Assembly: GCF_014192115.1 (NCBI RefSeq)
Contig: NZ_JACHXL010000003.1
Span: forward strand, 124,001 to 188,000
Source of the DNA: Psychrobacter luti
Lineage (GTDB): Bacteria > Pseudomonadota > Gammaproteobacteria > Pseudomonadales > Moraxellaceae
Direction: 5' to 3'
DNA length: 64,000 nt
The notes under the pieces are model-generated. The model saw nothing but the letters and a program-made list of their open reading frames with translations. It searched no databases and had not been told where the DNA came from. Made by a program: the position numbers and the translations under genes. Positions 4,144 to 27,686 of the stretch are shown here, one piece after another. Each line of letters begins with the position of its first letter. Within the stretch, counting starts at the first letter, position 1.

Positions 4144-5052
4144 TTATTTTTTATTAGCCGCGCCTTCAAATGCTTGTTTAAAGAGCTTACCTAATAAATT
4201 GACATCATCGACGCGGGCATAATTTAAACGGGTGACGAAGGCGATATGACGATGCGGTCCTTCCTCGGCTAGTGGCACTGCAACTGCGTCTTGGTTTTGC
4301 AGATGCAGCTGATCTAATGCCATCTCTGGCACTAATGTCGTGCCCATATTGGCAAGTGCCATTTGAATAAGGGTGTTTAAGCTAGCATCAGAAAAACTTG
4401 ATTTCATCTGTGCACGGTCAAAATGACAGACCGTCAAGGTTTGATCGGTTAAACAATGTCCTTCCCCTAATAGCATCAGATTGGCCGTTGCTAGCTCATC
4501 AGCATTGATGGTTTTAAGCTTGGCATGGACGTCGTCTTTTGGAAAGACGGCAAAGAAATCCTCCGCCCAGAACTCAAAAGTATGCAAGCCATCTACCGCA
4601 TACGGCAGCGCAATAATAGCGGTATCAATATGACCGTAACGCACTTGTTCGAGTAAGCGCTCCGTTTGCTGCTCGACAATGGTCATACGAAATTCTGGAT
4701 AGTGCTCACGCAGCGCAGGCAACACTTTTGGTAGCAGATAAGGCGCAATCGTTGGAATGATACCCACAGTCATAGGGTAGGCAAGGGGTGATTGATGACT
4801 ATGCGCGCGCGTGGTCAAATCATTGACTTCCGAAAATACGCGCTGCGCCCGCGTTAGGATGTCTTCACCGATAGGCGTAATCAGTACTTGCTTATTATTT
4901 CGCTCAAAAATCTGCGTATCAAGCTGTTTCTCTAATTCTGCGATACCAAGGCTCAATGCAGACTGCGAGATATTACAATCCTCTGCTGCGCGTTTAAAGT
5001 GACGATGTTTGGCAACGGCTAAGGCAAACTCAAGTTGACGTAAGGTAATCAT
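4144..5052 (-). CDS. oxyR: Hydrogen peroxide-sensing regulator OxyR (LysR family)
   Basis: A 302-residue LysR-type regulator with an N-terminal winged helix-turn-helix (MITLRQLEFALAVAKHRHFKR onward) and a LysR substrate domain. The two redox cysteines are present in GEGHCLTDQTLTVCHF. They are C200 and C209, the same nine-residue spacing as C199/C208 of E. coli OxyR, which form a disulfide on peroxide exposure. The gene is divergent from ahpC across a 276-bp intergenic region, the classical arrangement for an OxyR target. The ribosome site is AGAGAG before the ATG. Confidence is high because both cysteines and the context agree. Confidence 0.95.
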   Translation of the reverse strand: MITLRQLEFALAVAKHRHFKRAAEDCNISQSALSLGIAELEKQLDTQIFERNNKQVLITPIGEDILTRAQRVFSEVNDLTTRAHSHQSPLAYPMTVGIIPTIAPYLLPKVLPALREHYPEFRMTIVEQQTERLLEQVRYGHIDTAIIALPYAVDGLHTFEFWAEDFFAVFPKDDVHAKLKTINADELATANLMLLGEGHCLTDQTLTVCHFDRAQMKSSFSDASLNTLIQMALANMGTTLVPEMALDQLHLQNQDAVAVPLAEEGPHRHIAFVTRLNYARVDDVNLLGKLFKQAFEGAANKK

Positions 5053-19986: not shown

Positions 19987-20790
19987 CTATTTCCTAAGTG
20001 AAAAAGCCACCATTTTGCCGCCTACCCAATTGACCCAACTAACGGGGAAAATACGCTGTTGTAATCTAATGAAGTTTGCCATTACACCAGGTACGACTAA
20101 AAACTTTCGGTTTTCTACCCCTTTGAGCATAGATTTAACTGCGTTTTCTATTTTAAGCTCGCCTGCTAACTTTTTCATACCAACGCCCGCTTGTGACATG
20201 ACACCGACTTCAGCTCGGGTGAGTGGTGTATCTATCGGTGGCGGTGCAAAAACAGTGATATCAATGCCCAGAGGCTTCCATTCATAGTTTATCGACTGCA
20301 TCATACCCCAAATGGCAAACTTCGACGCACTATAAGAGCTGTAGCCATAACTGCCTGTGAATGATGACATAGAAGCAGTCACCATGACTTGATCGCCACG
20401 TGATAAAAACGGACGCACAGCTGCCAGTACGTTGCGAGTGCCAAACAGGTTGATATTCATCACCCGCTCAAACTGCTCTTGACTCATATCATCAAAGCTC
20501 CAAGGCCCCGTAATTCCCACAAAGTGCATTAGAATATCTGGCGATAAATTCTTAGCCGCAGTCGCCATTTGCTTAGTGGTTTCGTCGGCGTCGGTAACAT
20601 CCAGCTCATAAGTGGTAATTGAGATGTTGGATTTATTCATTGCTTGTAAAGCAGCTAAGGCTTCATCGAGCGGTTGTACGTCAAACAATACCAAGTTTGA
20701 CCCTTGGCTGACAAGTTGTCTTGCCGTCTCAAACCCGATACCAGAGGCCGCCCCAGTGATATAAACTGTCTTATTGGTAAAATAACTCAT
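19987..20790 (-). CDS. SDR family NAD(P)-dependent oxidoreductase
   Basis: A 267-residue classical short-chain dehydrogenase. The cofactor loop is ITGAASGIGFETA, the acidic LFDVQ follows strand two (NAD preference), and the catalytic Tyr-Lys motif is YSSYSASKFA. The C-terminal third is hydrophobic (VMANFIRLQQRIFPVSWVNW), as in SDRs acting on lipids or sterols that associate with membranes. Its ATG overlaps the stop of the MBL gene by one base (TAATG), so the two are co-translated. The substrate is unknown. Confidence 0.85.
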   Translation of the reverse strand: MSYFTNKTVYITGAASGIGFETARQLVSQGSNLVLFDVQPLDEALAALQAMNKSNISITTYELDVTDADETTKQMATAAKNLSPDILMHFVGITGPWSFDDMSQEQFERVMNINLFGTRNVLAAVRPFLSRGDQVMVTASMSSFTGSYGYSSYSASKFAIWGMMQSINYEWKPLGIDITVFAPPPIDTPLTRAEVGVMSQAGVGMKKLAGELKIENAVKSMLKGVENRKFLVVPGVMANFIRLQQRIFPVSWVNWVGGKMVAFSLRK

Positions 20791-21929
20791 TAAGCAATTT
20801 CCTTTTGCAATGCATTGTTTTTTGTGATATCTGTTGGCGCTGAGTGATTTTTTGCCGATTTTTTCTGCAAGCTACCAAATTTTGCCTCACCGATTAAATG
20901 ACTGACTTTATGGCTGGGGATAAGCCAATAGGGAGTCGCTTCACTGCTTGAGGCACAGTTAGGAAAATCAGGGTTTTGAGAGGGGCCAGCAATGGTTTTT
21001 TCGACGACCATCGAGATATATTGGTCGTTACTGCCTTCTAGCGTGTTGCCGTTTAGGATAACTTCCATGCCTGTCTGTTTGGCATAGCGGCGAATTGCAT
21101 TCACTTTTGAATTCATTGGCTCATAAGCGTCTGCACCCACGCCATTTTCTGAGGTAACTCTTATACCATCTAGCACACGTGCGACTAGCGAATGATTGCC
21201 TTCGGTATGACCTGGGGTATGCACCAGCGCCAAGCCTTCGCCTAACTGAATGCTGCCTGTAAACTGAATTACTTTATCAGGATCGACGCCTTCGATACCG
21301 TTGGGACAATACCAATCTGCTTGAACTGGCAACAAGGCACCAGTGCTTTGCCATTCTTGTTTATGAATCAAAATCTTGGCATTAGGGAAGTAGGCAGCTG
21401 TATCTTTAGTGCCTAGCCAGCGGCGTATATCTTGGGTATGTAGGTGGTCGTAGCTGATGTAATCAACATCTTCCGGCGCTAAACCGACTTCGGCTAGTGC
21501 GCCAGCGACATCACGAATGATGGGAGCAACAACACCTTCAAGCGGCAACCAGTTAGGCATCTTTTCCGTTAAGCGCTTAAAGAAGGGTGTTTCACGATCC
21601 GCTTCGATATCAGAAGGGGAAAAAAGTAAAGTTTTTAATTCGCCTAAGAAATCATGATATTGAATAATAAAGATGCGGTTTAGGATATGAAGATAGGGGA
21701 ATTTATAGGTATTTTGCGTGTAGACGCCACTATAAGCATACCAAGTTGGATAGGGCACTCTGACCATATCGGCACTTTGATAAAACTGTACGGGCGGCTC
21801 ATCCATAAAGCGCTCTCTAAATGCACTTGCTTGCACGCGAGCTGCTTTTAGACGCTCTTCTGGTAATGGACTTTGGTGAACCTGATCGAACTCATGGATG
21901 GCTTTTATACCTAACGAGGATAAATCCAT
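20790..21929 (-). CDS. MBL fold hydrolase, unusual metal motif
   Basis: About 379 residues from the ATG at 21929, which has AAGGAG at good distance; the frame extends to 21950. The metallo-beta-lactamase fold is shown by the pattern DHLHTQDIRRWLG (H162, H164, D167) and by VHTPGHTEGNHSL (H241). The first motif is HxHxxD rather than the usual HxHxDH, so metal binding may differ. A later acidic and asparagine-rich segment (LNGNTLEGSND) precedes the C-terminus. It forms an operon with the SDR gene downstream. A lactonase-like or ester hydrolase role is possible but not shown. Confidence 0.8.
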   Translation of the reverse strand: MDLSSLGIKAIHEFDQVHQSPLPEERLKAARVQASAFRERFMDEPPVQFYQSADMVRVPYPTWYAYSGVYTQNTYKFPYLHILNRIFIIQYHDFLGELKTLLFSPSDIEADRETPFFKRLTEKMPNWLPLEGVVAPIIRDVAGALAEVGLAPEDVDYISYDHLHTQDIRRWLGTKDTAAYFPNAKILIHKQEWQSTGALLPVQADWYCPNGIEGVDPDKVIQFTGSIQLGEGLALVHTPGHTEGNHSLVARVLDGIRVTSENGVGADAYEPMNSKVNAIRRYAKQTGMEVILNGNTLEGSNDQYISMVVEKTIAGPSQNPDFPNCASSSEATPYWLIPSHKVSHLIGEAKFGSLQKKSAKNHSAPTDITKNNALQKEIA

Positions 21930-22081
21930 AATGCATCTCCTTATGACCAATGGATAGATTTCTGCAGATTATAGTAGCAACATTATTTTGGTCTTGATAG
22001 CAGTATTTAGAATATTGCTAGGTTTACCAAGTTTTATCAAGTAGGTTGCTAAGGTATATTAAATAGTTCTATTAGAGCGTA

Positions 22082-22987
22082 TCAGAATTCGTCCCAATAA
22101 GGGTCATCGCCAAAACGTTCTGCAATAAAGTCAATTAGATAGCGGCATCGCTGTGATAAAAAGCGGTTCTTTGGGTAAACGGCATAGGCATGGAGTGTGG
22201 GTAATTGATACTGCTCAAGAATAGGCACCAGCTCACCTTTGGCCAATCTTTTATAAGCGATAAAAGTTGGGATAAAAACGATACCGTGGCCTTTTACCGC
22301 CAAATCAACTAAGAACTCACCATTAGTCGCTTTAATTTTTGCGTTTATTGTATGGTTATGCTTTTTGCCTTGCGCATCAGTCAGCTCGAGATTGCTAGTT
22401 TTACTAAGAGCATACTGCAAAAACTCATGTTCTTGTAGCTCCTCTAGTGTCTCAGGCGTACCCATTTTTTCTAGATACTCAGGGCTGGCACAAAGTGCAT
22501 AACGAATCAGCGCCAGACGCTTTGCTTGATAACTGGAATCTTGTAGCTCCCTAATACGAATGGCCAACTCATATCCCTCTTCAATCAAGTCAACGTGTCG
22601 ATCAGAAAAGTCTAATTCAAAGTTCAGGTTGGGATGCTGGTTGGCGTACTCGTCAATGACCTCATTCAGGTGCATGAGTCCAAATGATAGCGGTGCGGTC
22701 ATCTTTAACGTGCCTTCGATGCGTGTAGGCGCGCCACTGGTCTGCTCATTGAGCGCGTCAACTTCACTTAAGATGTTGCTCACTTGCTGATAGTACTGCT
22801 CACCTGCCTGTGTCAAGTTGGATTGGCGTGTGGTGCGGCTAATTAGCTGACTGCCTAACCGTGTTTCCAACTCTTTGAGGCGGCGGCTGACGGCTGACTT
22901 AGCGATATTTAATTGCTCAGCGGCTTTGGTAATACTACCGGCTTCGACAATGCGCACAAACATTGCCATATCTTCTAACTGTCCCAT
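22082..22987 (-). CDS. LysR family transcriptional regulator
   Basis: A 301-residue LysR regulator of the CrgA/DmlR-like group. Its N-terminus (MGQLEDMAMFVRIVEAGSIT, then AAEQLNIAKSAVSRRLKELE) is a typical winged helix-turn-helix. The gene is divergent from doxX. A 17-bp inverted-repeat site (GTTCTATAAATAAGAAC, 23005-23021) lies 18 bp upstream of its start and centred near -65 of the likely doxX start site, where LysR activators bind. The same site occurs at the first pirin promoter, so it may control both. The effector is unknown. The ribosome site is GGGAG. Confidence 0.88.
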   Translation of the reverse strand: MGQLEDMAMFVRIVEAGSITKAAEQLNIAKSAVSRRLKELETRLGSQLISRTTRQSNLTQAGEQYYQQVSNILSEVDALNEQTSGAPTRIEGTLKMTAPLSFGLMHLNEVIDEYANQHPNLNFELDFSDRHVDLIEEGYELAIRIRELQDSSYQAKRLALIRYALCASPEYLEKMGTPETLEELQEHEFLQYALSKTSNLELTDAQGKKHNHTINAKIKATNGEFLVDLAVKGHGIVFIPTFIAYKRLAKGELVPILEQYQLPTLHAYAVYPKNRFLSQRCRYLIDFIAERFGDDPYWDEF

Positions 22988-23004: not shown

Positions 23005-23071
23005 GTTCTATAAATAAGAACTGTCATTTGTAATTATTGGTGTTTATCCTTTTACATTCAACAATTATACT
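23005..23071 (+). promoter_or_regulatory. doxX promoter with LysR-type operator
   Basis: The inverted repeat GTTCT-N7-AGAAC at 23005-23021, then TTTATC (23043-23048) and TATACT (23066-23071) with a 17-bp spacer. The expected start site is near 23078, which places the repeat at about -65. It aligns without gaps with the region upstream of the first pirin gene. Confidence 0.6.
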
Positions 23072-23122
23072 GGCGCCATTCTATGATTAAAACGTATTTA
23101 AACACATTCTTGGAGAGTAACG

Positions 23123-23512
23123 ATGGACAAATTACAACAGCTTAGTGCCCCGATTGGTCGCCTATTTCTATCAATGATTTTTATTTTTTCAGGCTTTACT
23201 AAAATTACAGGGTATGCTGCCACTCAAGGTTATATGGAATCGATGGGCGTACCTGGTATGCTATTGCCTTTGGTTATTGCTATTGAGCTGCTTGGTGGTA
23301 TCGCTATTCTATTAGGCTTTAAAGCGCGCTTAGTAGCGATTTTAATGGCTGGCTTTAGCGTGGTTTCAGCGCTACTTTTCCACCAGTTCTGGATTGATGA
23401 ATCACAAATGAACCCATTTATGAAAAATATCGCGATGGCGGGTGGTTTCTTGATGATTTTTGCTCATGGCGCAGGCGCTTATTCAATAGATAATAGTAAT
23501 ACGCACAGATAA
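23123..23512 (+). CDS. DoxX family membrane protein
   Basis: A 129-residue protein with four membrane helices. It starts with APIGRLFLSMIFIFSGFTKI and contains the central motif VIAIELLGGIAILLGFKARL, both typical of DoxX/YphA/YqjF proteins. DoxX proteins are membrane redox partners linked to thiol or quinone stress in several bacteria. Its promoter carries the LysR-type site shared with the first pirin gene. The ribosome site is GGAGAG. It is the first of two + strand genes; DUF1275 follows after a short gap. Confidence 0.85.
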   Translation: MDKLQQLSAPIGRLFLSMIFIFSGFTKITGYAATQGYMESMGVPGMLLPLVIAIELLGGIAILLGFKARLVAILMAGFSVVSALLFHQFWIDESQMNPFMKNIAMAGGFLMIFAHGAGAYSIDNSNTHR

Positions 23513-23589
23513 TCACCTATCACTAAAACTAAGAAAACGATGATTAAGTGTACATTGATGCTCACTACTACTTATGCCAGTCCCTTATT

Positions 23590-24312
23590 ATGACAATTAA
23601 TAATCACAGCGTATCCAATGATAATTTGCCAAGTTTTTGGCAACGTCACCAAACGCCGGTGCTATTAACGGTCGTCGGCGGCGCGATTGATACGATCGGT
23701 TTTATCACCTTGTTTGGTTTCTTTACTGCACATGTCACGGGTAACTTAGTGATGGCGGGTAGTGGCTTGGTCAAAGGTGAAGATGGTCTATGGATTAAGC
23801 TTGCTGCCTTGCCGTTGTTTATTTTGACGGTCATGGTCACTAAGATATTTATTGATCATAGTAAAAATAAGCAGCTAACGCTGAGCCATTTATTTTTAGC
23901 GGAAGCCGTTTTTTTAACCGCCTTTATGATAGCTGGTCTTTACTATCAGCCTTTTGTCGACGCCGGCGATATAAGCGTGGCAATAACGGGTGGACTCGGT
24001 CTAATTGCGCTAGCGATTCGTAATACTGCTAGTAAAACGGTGATTAAACATATGAGCCCTACCGTGCTGATGACGGGTAATACCACACAACTGGGTATCA
24101 ATCTGACCGATTACTTGGTTAATCGGACAGGCGAAAATGGCAAAAAATTGGCCCATAGTTCAGTATTGGTCTTTAGCTTTTTAGTTGGCGCTTTAGTAGG
24201 TGCCTTGCTATATACGCAGCTGAGTTTTTGGGCAGTAGGCTTATTTGTATTGCCAGTGTTATATCTGTCAATAATGGCACGCGATAAAGAATTTTTAGAG
24301 CATATTGCTTAA
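23590..24312 (+). CDS. DUF1275 (YoaK-like) membrane protein
   Basis: About 240 residues with six predicted membrane segments. The family motif is seen in GGAIDTIGFITLFGFFTAHVTGNLV and a later MSPTVLMTGNTTQLG. These resemble YoaK/DUF1275 proteins, whose function is unknown. A GTG frame begins at 23548, but the ATG at 23590 gives a usual N-terminus; neither has a clear ribosome site. It is 77 bp after doxX and may be in the same transcript. A terminator follows. Confidence 0.8.
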   Translation: MTINNHSVSNDNLPSFWQRHQTPVLLTVVGGAIDTIGFITLFGFFTAHVTGNLVMAGSGLVKGEDGLWIKLAALPLFILTVMVTKIFIDHSKNKQLTLSHLFLAEAVFLTAFMIAGLYYQPFVDAGDISVAITGGLGLIALAIRNTASKTVIKHMSPTVLMTGNTTQLGINLTDYLVNRTGENGKKLAHSSVLVFSFLVGALVGALLYTQLSFWAVGLFVLPVLYLSIMARDKEFLEHIA

Positions 24313-24420
24313 TAAGTTTTAGCTTAATCATTCCACTGCTTATATTATTGCTATTAGAAAGTATCGCTTATAAAAATCATTGCCCATAAAAAATCCTACC
24401 CATACAAAACATTGCCAATA

Positions 24421-24456
24421 AAAAACGCCATATCCGTAAAGATATGGCATTTTTTT
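24421..24456. terminator. Bidirectional intrinsic terminator, DUF1275 / GNAT
   Basis: A hairpin AACGCCATATC / GATATGGCATT with a 6-base loop and T-run, between convergent genes. Confidence 0.88.
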
Positions 24457-24487
24457 GCTTTCTATTTAAGCGCTTATGTGTAGCTAT

Positions 24488-24838
24488 TTAAGGCGTAGCA
24501 TTATGAAACACTGAGTTGTCTTGGTACTCTGGATGCTTGTCGATATAAGATTTTACATAAGGACAAGTCGGTTTCACGCGCAAGTTTTTCGCAGCCGCAT
24601 CATCTAAGATATATTTGACCAAGTAACCTGCAATACCTCGACCACCTAACTCTTCTGGCACTTCGGTATGTTTGTATTCAATACCTTTTTCACCTGCGCT
24701 GGTGGTAAAGAATTCATAATCTTCCAAAGCAATCTTGCCATCGATATGAATCTCAAAACGCTTTTTATCGGTATTATCGATAATTTCATAACCTAATGCT
24801 TCTCTATTTTTTTTATCTGACTTTGCCGTATCTGACAT
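24488..24838 (-). CDS. GNAT-like N-acetyltransferase, short YjdJ type
   Basis: A 116-residue protein of the short acetyltransferase group (PF14542). It contains KHTEVPEELGGRGIAGYLV, where the GGRGIA loop binds acetyl-CoA, and ends CPYVKSYIDKHPEYQ, a hallmark of this family. Substrate unknown. The start is preceded by AAGGAAATTTAACC. It is divergent from the first pirin gene over a 307-bp gap that also holds the shared LysR-type promoter element. Confidence 0.83.
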   Translation of the reverse strand: MSDTAKSDKKNREALGYEIIDNTDKKRFEIHIDGKIALEDYEFFTTSAGEKGIEYKHTEVPEELGGRGIAGYLVKYILDDAAAKNLRVKPTCPYVKSYIDKHPEYQDNSVFHNATP

Positions 24839-25145
24839 GGTTAAATTTCCTTATATCGTAAGTATGATTAACATCTTCTAGATTTAATTTACATTTGCTA
24901 TCGTTGCTTTTTTCATAACACTTTTATCATAACTTTGGCCATAGTAACAGCTTATGCTAGTTGACCTGTTATCCATATATTACGCTATCTTTATGACGTT
25001 ATTGTTCTAAAAATAAGAATAGTTAATTGCGATTATCATTGTTTATCTATTAGTAGACAACAATTATAATAGATCCATTGTTTAAACAATTTAATGAATC
25101 ATAAATTCTAAAGCTGTTTAACTTACTAATAATTAAGGATAAATT
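24839..25145. other. GNAT-pirin divergent intergenic region
   Basis: 307 AT-rich bases. The right part holds the LysR-type site and pirin promoter (25004-25070). Nothing else is recognised. Confidence 0.5.
25004..25070 (+). promoter_or_regulatory. Pirin promoter with the same LysR-type operator as doxX
   Basis: GTTCTAAAAATAAGAAT (25004-25020) matches the doxX site at 15 of 17 bases. TTTATC (25042-25047), a 17-bp spacer and TATAAT (25065-25070) lie at identical distances to those upstream of doxX. About 55 of 76 bases match without any gap. Confidence 0.6.
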
Positions 25146-25859
25146 ATGAAAACGATCTATCATGCAGCAGATTCTCGTGGCGATGCCAACCATGGCTGGT
25201 TAAAAAGTAAGCATACCTTCAGTTTTGCCAATTATCACAATCCAGAACGTATGGGTTTTGGCGCTCTACGCGTCATCAACGATGACTTCGTTATTGGCGG
25301 TCAAGGCTTCGGTAAGCACTCGCACCGCGATATGGAAATTATCAGCATCCCATTATCAGGTAAGCTCGGTCACGGCGATAATATTGGTAATAATGGCATT
25401 ATCGAGACGGGCGAGATTCAAGTCATGTCAGCGGGCACTGGTATTACGCACAGTGAAATGAATGGCGATGACAAAGAAGATGTGAAATTCCTACAGATTT
25501 GGGTCATCCCAAATAAAATGAACGTTGAGCCTCGTTATCAGCAAGTTCGTATGGACGATATCCTTAAGCCAAATAAGTTCAACCAAGTATTGTCGCCAAA
25601 TAGCGACGACGCAGGGGTATGGATTCATCAAGATGCTTGGTTTAGCATGGGTGATTTTGATAAAGGTATCACCCAAACTTATGAGCTAAAAAACCCTAAT
25701 AACGGCGTTTATATCTTTGTCATTAGCGGTAAAGTCGTCGTAAACGGTAACACTTTAGATACTCGCGATGGTCTGGGCGTTTGGGATACTAAGAGCTTTA
25801 CGATGGACGTAGAAGAAGATGCTAAAGTATTGCTAATGGAAGTTCCTATGAGTTTTTAA
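25146..25859 (+). CDS. Pirin family protein (YhhW-like)
   Basis: A 237-residue bicupin protein. The iron-binding residues are in GFGKHSHRDMEII and GITHSEMNGD, matching the HxH...H/E pattern of pirins. The length and N-terminus (MKTIYHAADSRGDANHGWL) are close to E. coli YhhW, which has quercetinase activity in vitro. The in vivo role is unclear; pirins are often induced by redox or electrophile stress. The LysR-type site upstream suggests control with doxX. A good ribosome site (AAGGATAAATT) is present. A second, longer pirin follows 65 bp downstream. Confidence 0.93.
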   Translation: MKTIYHAADSRGDANHGWLKSKHTFSFANYHNPERMGFGALRVINDDFVIGGQGFGKHSHRDMEIISIPLSGKLGHGDNIGNNGIIETGEIQVMSAGTGITHSEMNGDDKEDVKFLQIWVIPNKMNVEPRYQQVRMDDILKPNKFNQVLSPNSDDAGVWIHQDAWFSMGDFDKGITQTYELKNPNNGVYIFVISGKVVVNGNTLDTRDGLGVWDTKSFTMDVEEDAKVLLMEVPMSF

Positions 25860-25924: not shown

Positions 25925-26863
25925 ATGAGTATCGAAACCTTAGAACCACGTTTGGCCGATGTTGGCGGTATTCCTATCGCGCGTCTATTACCCAATACAG
26001 GCAAAAAGCCAATAGGCGCGTGGTGCTTTTTAGATCACGCCGGTCCTGCCGAATTTGGTGAGGATGAGTTAGGTATGCAAGTCGGTCGCCATCCGCATAC
26101 CAACTTGCAAACCTTTAGCTGGATGTTAAATGGTGAGGTGCTGCACAAAGATAGCTTGGGTAATGAGCAAGTTATCAGCAAAAATCAAGTCAACGTCATG
26201 ACAGCAGGTACGGGTCTGACACAAGGTATCAGTCATACTGAACAAAGCGTTTTCCCCGATACGGGCGGCTCAGCAGATGCAGCACGCGGCTTGAGTATGG
26301 TGCAGCTGTGGATTGCATTACCGACCGATCAGCAAATCGAGCGTAGCTTCCATCATTATCCAGAGCTGCCAACATGGCGCGAGGATAGCGTCAAGATGAT
26401 TCTAACGACGGGCAGCTATACCAGCGTATCAGGTGAGCGTTACGAAGCGCCTACCATCCAGTATTCAAAAATGGTTGGTATCGATGTGTATTTCGTTGAA
26501 GACGGTGAGGTCACGCTTAACTTAGAGTCGGGCTTTGAATACGGAATCTTGGTGACAGAAGGGCAGATCGAGTCTGAAGGCAAAATCTGCAAGCAAGATC
26601 AGTTGTTTCGCTTCCATGATAGCGATGTTGCCAATAATGAAAGCATCAAGCTGGTCGCCAGAAAAGGTACCCGTGTGATGTTTATCGGCGGTGAGCCATT
26701 GAACAACCAAGTGTTACTGTGGTGGAACTTTGTTGCTGACAATAAAGCAGAGATTGAGCAATCTATCATCGACTGGAATAACGGTCATGAGCGTTTTGGT
26801 AATGTCGACTCTGATATGAATCGCTTGCCAGCGCCAGAGTTGCCTGAAGGTTTCAAAGGTTAA
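25925..26863 (+). CDS. Pirin family protein, long form
   Basis: A 312-residue pirin. The N-terminal cupin carries GRHPHTNLQTFSWMLNGEV and GISHTEQS, the metal-ligand segments of the pirin fold. A C-terminal pirin domain with LLWWNFVADNKAEIEQ follows, typical of the longer YhaK/pirin-C type. It is only distantly similar to the preceding pirin (different length and core), so this is not a recent tandem copy. With the first pirin it likely forms an operon (65-bp gap, ribosome site AGAGGTG). Confidence 0.92.
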   Translation: MSIETLEPRLADVGGIPIARLLPNTGKKPIGAWCFLDHAGPAEFGEDELGMQVGRHPHTNLQTFSWMLNGEVLHKDSLGNEQVISKNQVNVMTAGTGLTQGISHTEQSVFPDTGGSADAARGLSMVQLWIALPTDQQIERSFHHYPELPTWREDSVKMILTTGSYTSVSGERYEAPTIQYSKMVGIDVYFVEDGEVTLNLESGFEYGILVTEGQIESEGKICKQDQLFRFHDSDVANNESIKLVARKGTRVMFIGGEPLNNQVLLWWNFVADNKAEIEQSIIDWNNGHERFGNVDSDMNRLPAPELPEGFKG

Positions 26864-27074: not shown

Positions 27075-27686
27075 ATGTCAGACCTAAAAACATTACAGCA
27101 ATTGGCTGAAAAGCGTCGTTCTATCTATGCATTGAGCAATCAATTGCCAGTATCAAACGATGAAATCATCAAGTTGGTTGAGCATGCAGTTTTACACACA
27201 CCATCAGCGTTTAACTCACAATCAACGCGTATAGTCGTTTTATTTGGCGATGACCATAACAAGCTTTGGCAAATTACCGAAGATACGTTACGTGGTATCG
27301 TTGGTGACGATGAGAAGTTTAAGTCAACAAAAGAAAAAATCAATGGCTTTAAAGCCGGCGCTGGTACCATTATGTTCTTTGAAGACCAAAGCGTCGTAAA
27401 AAGTATGCAAGAAAACGCGCCTTTATATGCAGATAAGTTCCCAACTTGGGCACATCAAACCAGCGCGATGCATCAGTATGTTATTTGGACGGCATTGGCC
27501 AGCATCGACGTTGGTGCAAATCTGCAACACTATAACCCTGTCATCGATGACAAGGTTGCTGAAGCATGGAATATTGACAAAGACTGGGCGCTGAATGCAC
27601 AAATGGTATTCGGTGCCATCGAACAGTCAGCAGGCGATAAAGCATTTAAGCCAGTTGAAGATCGTATGCAAGTATTTGGCAAGTAA
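27075..27686 (+). CDS. Nitroreductase family protein
   Basis: A 203-residue FMN-dependent nitroreductase-fold protein. RRSIYALSNQLPVSNDEII is the usual N-terminal FMN-binding segment (R-R-S), and HTPSAFNSQSTRIVVL is the family motif. The C-terminal part ASIDVGANLQHYNP fits the 200-residue hydroxylamine or nitroalkane-type members. It may reduce quinones or nitro compounds. It follows the two pirins on the same strand after 211 bp and has its own ribosome site (GGAG). A strong terminator lies downstream. Confidence 0.88.
   Translation: MSDLKTLQQLAEKRRSIYALSNQLPVSNDEIIKLVEHAVLHTPSAFNSQSTRIVVLFGDDHNKLWQITEDTLRGIVGDDEKFKSTKEKINGFKAGAGTIMFFEDQSVVKSMQENAPLYADKFPTWAHQTSAMHQYVIWTALASIDVGANLQHYNPVIDDKVAEAWNIDKDWALNAQMVFGAIEQSAGDKAFKPVEDRMQVFGK

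Follow-up and report, generated by a model that had tools for sequence, protein, structure and literature searches.

Why should the promoters of a doxX gene and a pirin gene, 2 kb apart in Psychrobacter luti, share one arrangement of elements? The two genes lie in a stretch of 64,000 nucleotides (assembly GCF_014192115.1, contig NZ_JACHXL010000003.1, positions 124,001 to 188,000 of the forward strand; hereafter the window), next to a divergent gene for a LysR-type regulator. A sequence-only reading of the window had proposed a small regulon of this LysR, doxX, the pirins and perhaps a DUF1275 gene. Site conservation, co-occurrence of the sites with the LysR gene and the identity of the genes behind them all support such a regulon of LysR, doxX and pirins as a prediction from sequence. 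We consider it likely that the two copies are the promoters of one small regulon, in which a CrgA/YafC-like LysR activator would govern a defence against quinols and quinones.

A shared promoter layout

The site GTTCTATAAATAAGAAC upstream of doxX and the site GTTCTAAAAATAAGAAT upstream of the first pirin gene, pirin1, begin at positions 23005 and 25004 of the window, where the sequence-only reading had placed them. From these positions the two promoters align without a gap over 76 base pairs (bp) with exactly 55 identities, equal to its count. Among 1000 control pairs, generated as first-order Markov resamples of both intergenic regions, the best ungapped 76-base identity averaged 36.6 and never exceeded 45. 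At equal distances in both promoters there follow TTTATC, 17 bp and then TATACT or TATAAT, again as claimed. The GTTCTAAAAATAAGAAT copy is an imperfect dyad, with AGAAT where the doxX copy has AGAAC, and this variant is largely retained before pirin1 across the genus. Assuming a transcription start about 7 bp 3' of the -10, the dyad, which contains T-N11-A, is centred near -66 (-65 had been claimed) before a poor -35, GTTTATC, which matches TTGACA badly. A T-N11-A dyad near -66 before a weak -35 fits a recognition site of the LysR family, and a poor match to TTGACA is typical of activator-dependent promoters.

The 17-bp site alone is a weak indicator. The strict site, GTTCT-N7-AGAAY, has seven matches at six places in the P. 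luti genome against three for the reversed pattern, and with one mismatch allowed it occurs in the window at chance level (7 against 5.9 expected). We therefore dropped it as sole evidence, and the evidential weight falls on the longer module and its conservation. Two of the four other strict-site places in this genome lie within open reading frames (ORFs; L093 and L098), and another (L096) lies 341 bp before an ORF and lacks the module. The fourth place (L097/L123) has a module with three mismatches at G000:C4:83329-83372, 152 bp before an ORF of 83 amino acids, which is also found in G006; it may be a chance match or a weak further target.

Co-occurrence of the module and the LysR gene in Psychrobacter

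We searched 60 genomes of the cold-loving genus Psychrobacter with the 44-bp module pattern GTTCTN7AGAAYN4ATTTGN11GTTTATC, allowing up to three mismatches, and obtained 112 matches against 2 for the reversed pattern. A LysR orthologue (at least 66% identity) is present in 48 of the 60 genomes, P. luti included, and the next paralogues reach at most 39%. The module occurs in all 48 genomes with the orthologue (46 at up to two mismatches, G005 and G028 having only three-mismatch matches) and in 2 of the 12 without it (none at up to two mismatches). Similarly, doxX is found in 40 of the 48 (one of them a remnant, in G019) and in none of the 12, and pirin1 in 46 of the 48 and 2 of the 12. Because the genomes share ancestry, these counts are not independent of one another. 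G013 and G033, which carry the module without the orthologue, lack doxX as well as LysR and keep pirin1 and the nitroreductase gene; their left arm reads GTTTG, and the -35 and -10 are altered. Such damage is as expected from decay after loss of the regulator and may reflect a single event.

For conservation upstream of orthologues, on which the sequence-only reading had made itself depend, we mapped 60 stretches taken from Psychrobacter genomes and counted doxX and pirin1 matches of more than 60% identity beginning at residue 1 or 2 within the 60 neighbourhoods. The site is kept. Of 35 regions upstream of doxX, 33 carry the strict site, with a varying spacer, and the two others retain the right arm. 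For pirin1 the figure is 39 of 56 regions; both counts include the window. The 17 misses comprise one single mismatch (L040), nine regions in five distant genomes, two without LysR and five before paralogues of 60-65% identity. Across the 72 strict-site regions the 7-bp spacer is variable; strongly kept are an ATT just 5' of the site, the element ATTTG-N2-ATTAT 4 bp 3' of it, GTTTATC and the -10 region. The doxX and pirin1 versions of the module mostly retain their own signatures across the genus.

Five doxX genes (L037, L050, L076, L082 and L084) fell outside these counts by the start or identity rule; the pirin1 of G056, a broken gene, lies on a contig outside the 60 stretches. In four of the five genomes concerned the module match was assigned to doxX, and in G019 to DUF1275; the doxX of G022 lies behind a sequence more than three mismatches from the module. 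The G019 locus (L037) holds a doxX remnant with stops behind an intact promoter module, and its DUF1275 gene comes next downstream.

Genes behind the module

We examined 111 of the 112 module matches, leaving out G006:C1:36132. All except four, each with three mismatches, lie 60-480 bp before a gene of one set: pirin1 (42), doxX (38), yqjG (10), DUF1275 (7), another pirin (4), an isochorismatase-like gene (4) and a flavin mononucleotide (FMN) reductase gene (2). The Psychrobacter yqjG product is 62% identical over 247 amino acids to E. coli YqjG, which is annotated as a glutathionyl-hydroquinone reductase; the FMN reductase and isochorismatase genes were assigned by Pfam. The seven matches before DUF1275 genes, found in other species, bear out the tentative inclusion of DUF1275 in the regulon, and the presence of the module before genes for hydroquinone reductase and FMN reductase lends support to the earlier guess of quinone stress. 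With a shorter 20-base pattern, ATTGTTCT-N7-AGAAY, the 60 genomes yielded 95 matches, compared with 6 for the reversed form, and of 20 off-cluster matches examined (G032:C45:6767 left out) 13 precede genes of the set.

Relatives outside Psychrobacter

An order-level search of 390 genomes (E 1e-90) recovered seven LysR orthologues outside Psychrobacter, of 48-62% identity, and in six of them GTTCT-N7-AGAAY occupies the stretch that separates LysR from a divergent pirin gene. Six further Psychrobacter loci were analysed alongside, four of them with the strict site (L100, L102, L103 and L104). Among 72 named LysR loci, the closest is that of Psychrobacter sp. ANT_WB68 (99% identical), and the 16 from outside the genus were analysed for sites. 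Nine of these reach at least 55% identity (Acinetobacter harbinensis, three Marinicella, Shewanella and four metagenome-assembled genomes); all have doxX or a pirin gene divergent from LysR, and eight have the module within three mismatches, four of these with the strict site. The Shewanella locus, L203, has neither. Among the seven loci below 55%, the module occurs in L210 only. The gene order is doxX-pirin-yqjG in L200, L203 and L210 and doxX-yqjG in L216.

We also scanned 368 other genomes of the class with the module alone, at up to two mismatches. It matched three times, against once for the reversed pattern, and all three matches, few as they are, lie at the start of a LysR relative of 45-47% identity; the tally covers module matches rather than all LysR relatives. 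Opposite the relative stand doxX-pirin (L225) or cytochrome b561-YceI genes. In our judgement no other result argues as strongly for this LysR family as the reader of the site, because the scan made no use of the protein. The link that had been drawn between the LysR and the sites is thus backed by co-occurrence within the genus and adjacency beyond it.

Some of these loci deserve separate mention. In L222:275-2465 and L223:542-3044 the LysR relatives (45-46%) have the module before the cytochrome b561-YceI genes, and a pirin gene comes next in L223. The LysR proteins of L191, L192, L194 and L196 (Acinetobacter harbinensis and Marinicella) are 74-78% identical to that of the window, against 66-73% for some Psychrobacter, and doxX-pirin1(-pirin2)-nitroreductase adjoins them; these identities suggest that the cassette probably moved between genera. 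In L213, L214 and L215, whose regulators are relatives of 33-37%, a different element precedes the regulator gene, TTATTGTTA...TGGAAACAG in L213 and L214 and, in L215, the similar GGAAACAGT; it has the look of an altered operator.

Identity of the regulator and known counterparts

The best PDB match of the window LysR is 3hhg (E 7e-51), the closest solved relative in the CrgA/YafC branch. CrgA answers an electrophile, and MdaB is a quinone reductase. The structure 3HHG is CrgA of N. meningitidis (PMC6422896; papers cited by PMC number are cited for parts of their text), and CrgA binds T-N11-A at crgA/mdaB, as cited in the same paper. Among NCBIfam models YafC scored best, at 241 bits against a cutoff of 470, below the equivalog level, and identity to YafC is 34% in the tree alignment; the tree, in which CrgA is not among the sequences, has open forks around YafC. 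Judged by these comparisons, the protein is a relative of YafC, not a YafC, and the named proteins nearest to it, both of them distant, are CrgA (3hhg) and YafC. The Neisseria CrgA and E. coli YafC branch provides its best sequence matches, although the targets differ, and the likeness is drawn without comparing operators. In the window LysR may control its own gene through GTTCTATAAATAAGAAC, which lies 17 bp from the LysR start codon, but such autoregulation was rejected as a general feature because a YceI gene (4402-5013) lies between LysR and the site in L039.

The nearest functional counterpart is a different protein. E. coli YhaJ activates yqjF, yhaK, yhhW, ygiD, ybiJ and yceP, responds to hydroquinone, catechol and dinitrotoluene metabolites and recognizes the box TCA-N7-TGA (PMC5031710). 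Like the system described here, it is a LysR-type regulator over a DoxX protein and pirins with a T-N11-A dyad and a 7-bp spacer, and the combination of DoxX and pirin targets recurs in Psychrobacter. The yqjG homologues behind the module in 10 Psychrobacter genomes extend the likeness: yqjF, yqjG, yhaJ and yhaK lie close together in E. coli, and control of yqjG by YhaJ is not described in the parts of PMC5031710 drawn on here. However, the Psychrobacter regulator comes from another LysR branch, its half-site is GTTCT rather than TCA, and DUF1275, the FMN reductase and the isochorismatase-like gene are extra members. Neither this parallel nor the distinction from YhaJ was part of the sequence-only reading.

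Pirins also belong to the LysR regulons of PA3225 and BexR in Pseudomonas aeruginosa (PMC5527654, PMC2796861), and the BexR regulon includes an FMN reductase adjoining a pirin (PMC2796861). The term DoxX is absent from the texts of both papers, as is quinone from that of the PA3225 paper, and these regulons too are likened without comparing operators. In Pseudomonas fluorescens In5 confronted with Rhizoctonia, a DoxX protein is co-induced with pirins, YqjG and azoreductases, and the portions consulted name no proven regulator (PMC5557065); this co-induction supports the view of the kit as a unit. Among the open-access papers listed for our literature searches we found no description of the Psychrobacter regulator or its site.

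We are slightly inclined to think that one quinol-defence kit of DoxX/YqjF, YqjG, pirins and flavin reductases came under each of two LysR regulators that are not orthologous and have different operators: YhaJ in enterobacteria, and the CrgA/YafC-like protein in Psychrobacter, Marinicella, Shewanella and others. On that view DoxX and pirin would be core parts of quinone detoxification, and the kit, not the regulator, would be the conserved unit. That the kit is governed in E. coli by an unrelated LysR points to replacement of the regulator or to convergence. Placing DoxX, DUF1275 and pirin with a hydroquinone reductase behind one operator of a dedicated regulator would tie them to a common task. 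The shared operator also yields a short list of promoters to test, and the system could offer a second sensor protein and operator for hydroquinone or nitroaromatic biosensors, where YhaJ is already used.

Proposed mechanism and alternative explanations

The two sites, their shared layout and conservation, their co-occurrence with LysR and the identities of the target genes are directly established. On our proposal, the divergent CrgA/YafC-like LysR would bind the GTTCT-N7-AGAAY dyad near -66 and sense a quinol, a quinone or a related aromatic electrophile. With its inducer it would then contact the ATTTG-N2-ATTAT element and the weak -35; ligand-dependent activation is suggested by this second element and the weak -35, and the quinol or quinone inducer is guessed from the target set. 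Acting as an activator rather than a repressor, it would switch on doxX, with DUF1275 possibly transcribed by read-through, as well as pirin1-pirin2 and perhaps the nitroreductase gene. In other species the same module may control a yqjG-type hydroquinone reductase, an FMN reductase, further pirins, DUF1275 and an isochorismatase-like gene.

Several findings weigh against this proposal. In G005, G021, G023, G035 and G038 the site is present in none of nine pirin1 regions, though doxX keeps the module. The invariance of the arms is partly by construction, because the rows were chosen by their arms; the other columns were unselected. Only doxX and pirin1 (80 matches) were named as targets beforehand, and the yqjG, FMN reductase, isochorismatase, second DUF1275 and third pirin queries were added after the loci had been viewed. 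Membership of yqjG is patchy, since the gene occurs in 53 of the 60 genomes and the module precedes it in 10; the yqjG of the window is not among the matches. Seven of the 20 off-cluster ATTGTTCT-N7-AGAAY matches lie inside ORFs or before unrelated genes (L115-L118, L123, L130 and L134). Inspecting the consensus by eye at ATTTG-N2-ATTAT, we saw no symmetric second site and no clear dyad. The seventh order-level orthologue (L112) has LysR, doxX and pirin with one base changed in the right arm. Of the six further Psychrobacter loci, L101 shows damage to its left arm, and no site is present in L108, where the match to LysR extends over residues 1-234 only. The strict site is absent from five of the nine named loci at or above 55% identity and from all seven below. 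Finally, DoxX, DUF1275 and pirin are widespread proteins of unclear role and poorly known biochemistry.

The alternative that deserves most attention, less probable than a quinol or quinone trigger but a serious contender, accepts the regulator and its sites and changes the inducer to a flavonoid, a nitroaromatic, an oxidised lipid or isoprenoid, or general redox stress. The quercetinase C-terminal domain of pirin1 (Pfam), the module before cytochrome b561-YceI genes in two distant relatives and the release of Pseudomonas aeruginosa CrgA by fatty acyl-CoA (PMC6422896) all point that way, against which stand the occurrence of the module before genes for glutathionyl-hydroquinone reductase and FMN reductase and the response of the parallel YhaJ system to hydroquinone and catechol (PMC5031710). 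It is improbable that another DNA-binding protein, for instance a paralogous LysR, reads the site and the neighbouring LysR is incidental. Binding by this LysR is a prediction, and Psychrobacter genomes hold many LysR paralogues of up to 39% identity; yet the module accompanies LysR in 48 of 48 genomes and survives, damaged, in only 2 of 12 without it, the sites in other families adjoin orthologues, and all three class-wide matches adjoin LysR relatives.

We give very little credence to the view that the promoters resemble each other by chance or through a recent duplication and that the likeness has no bearing on regulation. The near-chance frequency of the 17-bp site in the genome would allow it, but the 55 identities exceed all 1000 resampled pairs, the module outnumbers its control by 112 to 2, the strict site has persisted through drift of the spacers, and the doxX and pirin1 versions mostly hold their own signatures. 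We give as little credence to the idea that this is no more than the YhaJ system of E. coli, run by an orthologue of YhaJ. Gene content first suggested YhaJ orthology, the targets being of the same kind: DoxX is 48% identical to YqjF, the YqjG homologue 62%, and both systems have pirins. Identity, tree, BLASTP, profile scores and box led us to reject it. The window LysR and YhaJ share 16.6% aligned identity, with a BLASTP E-value of 1.2; YhaJ groups with PunR at 100/98, apart from the window protein, in a tree flagged for the long branches of its E. coli sequences; and at E 1e-30 no YhaJ match appeared in the 60 Psychrobacter genomes, in a search run without a positive control. TCA-N7-TGA, found upstream of E. 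coli yqjF and yhaK, occurs in none of the 72 strict-site surroundings (-30 to +60).

Features of the Psychrobacter luti locus

The features are collected in Table 1. For the second conserved element, the 33 doxX rows were picked by the strict site, and the element itself was no criterion.

Table 1. Genes and promoter elements of the locus, in window coordinates.
Feature	Position	Strand	Basis
LysR-type regulator, 301 amino acids, CrgA/YafC-like, proposed activator	22082..22987	-	Pfam HTH_1 and LysR_substrate above cutoffs
Proposed LysR recognition site GTTCTATAAATAAGAAC, perfect 5-bp arms, 7-bp spacer, contains T-N11-A	23005..23021	+	Sequence
Second conserved element ATTTGTAATTAT, candidate activation half-site	23026..23037	+	Information content, 33 doxX upstream rows
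GTTTATC, weak -35 of doxX promoter	23042..23048 (TTTATC 23043-23048)	+	Conserved
-10 TATACT of doxX promoter	23066..23071	+	Sequence, conserved layout
doxX, 129 amino acids	23123..23512	+	Pfam DoxX
DUF1275 membrane protein gene	23593..24312	+	Pfam
Proposed LysR recognition site GTTCTAAAAATAAGAAT of pirin1	25004..25020	+	Sequence, conservation
Second conserved element, pirin1 copy AATTGCGATTAT	25025..25036	+	39 pirin1 rows
GTTTATC, -35 of pirin1 promoter	25041..25047 (TTTATC 25042-25047)	+	Conserved
-10 TATAAT of pirin1 promoter	25065..25070	+	Sequence, conserved layout
pirin1, 237 amino acids, Pirin and quercetinase C-terminal cupin	25146..25859	+	Pfam
pirin2, 312 amino acids, starts 65 bp after pirin1	25925..26863	+	Pfam
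Nitroreductase-family protein gene, 211 bp after pirin2	27075..27686	+	Pfam

By BLASTP, the identity of the window DoxX to E. coli YqjF extends over 124 amino acids, and pirin1 is 25% identical to YhaK. The hairpin with the longest T run lies at 24427-24448, 3' of the DUF1275 gene, and weaker terminator-like matches occur inside doxX and inside the DUF1275 gene. A small acetyltransferase gene on the opposite strand separates the DUF1275 gene from pirin1. At 19987-21950 the window carries a metallo-beta-lactamase-like gene, whose product has weak NCBIfam lactonase matches only and no Pfam match, and a short-chain dehydrogenase gene; these adjoin LysR in some species and not in others. Between pirin1 and pirin2 we found no terminator-like match, and the two are likely on one transcript. 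The nitroreductase gene, which adjoins the cluster in many loci, possibly shares it.

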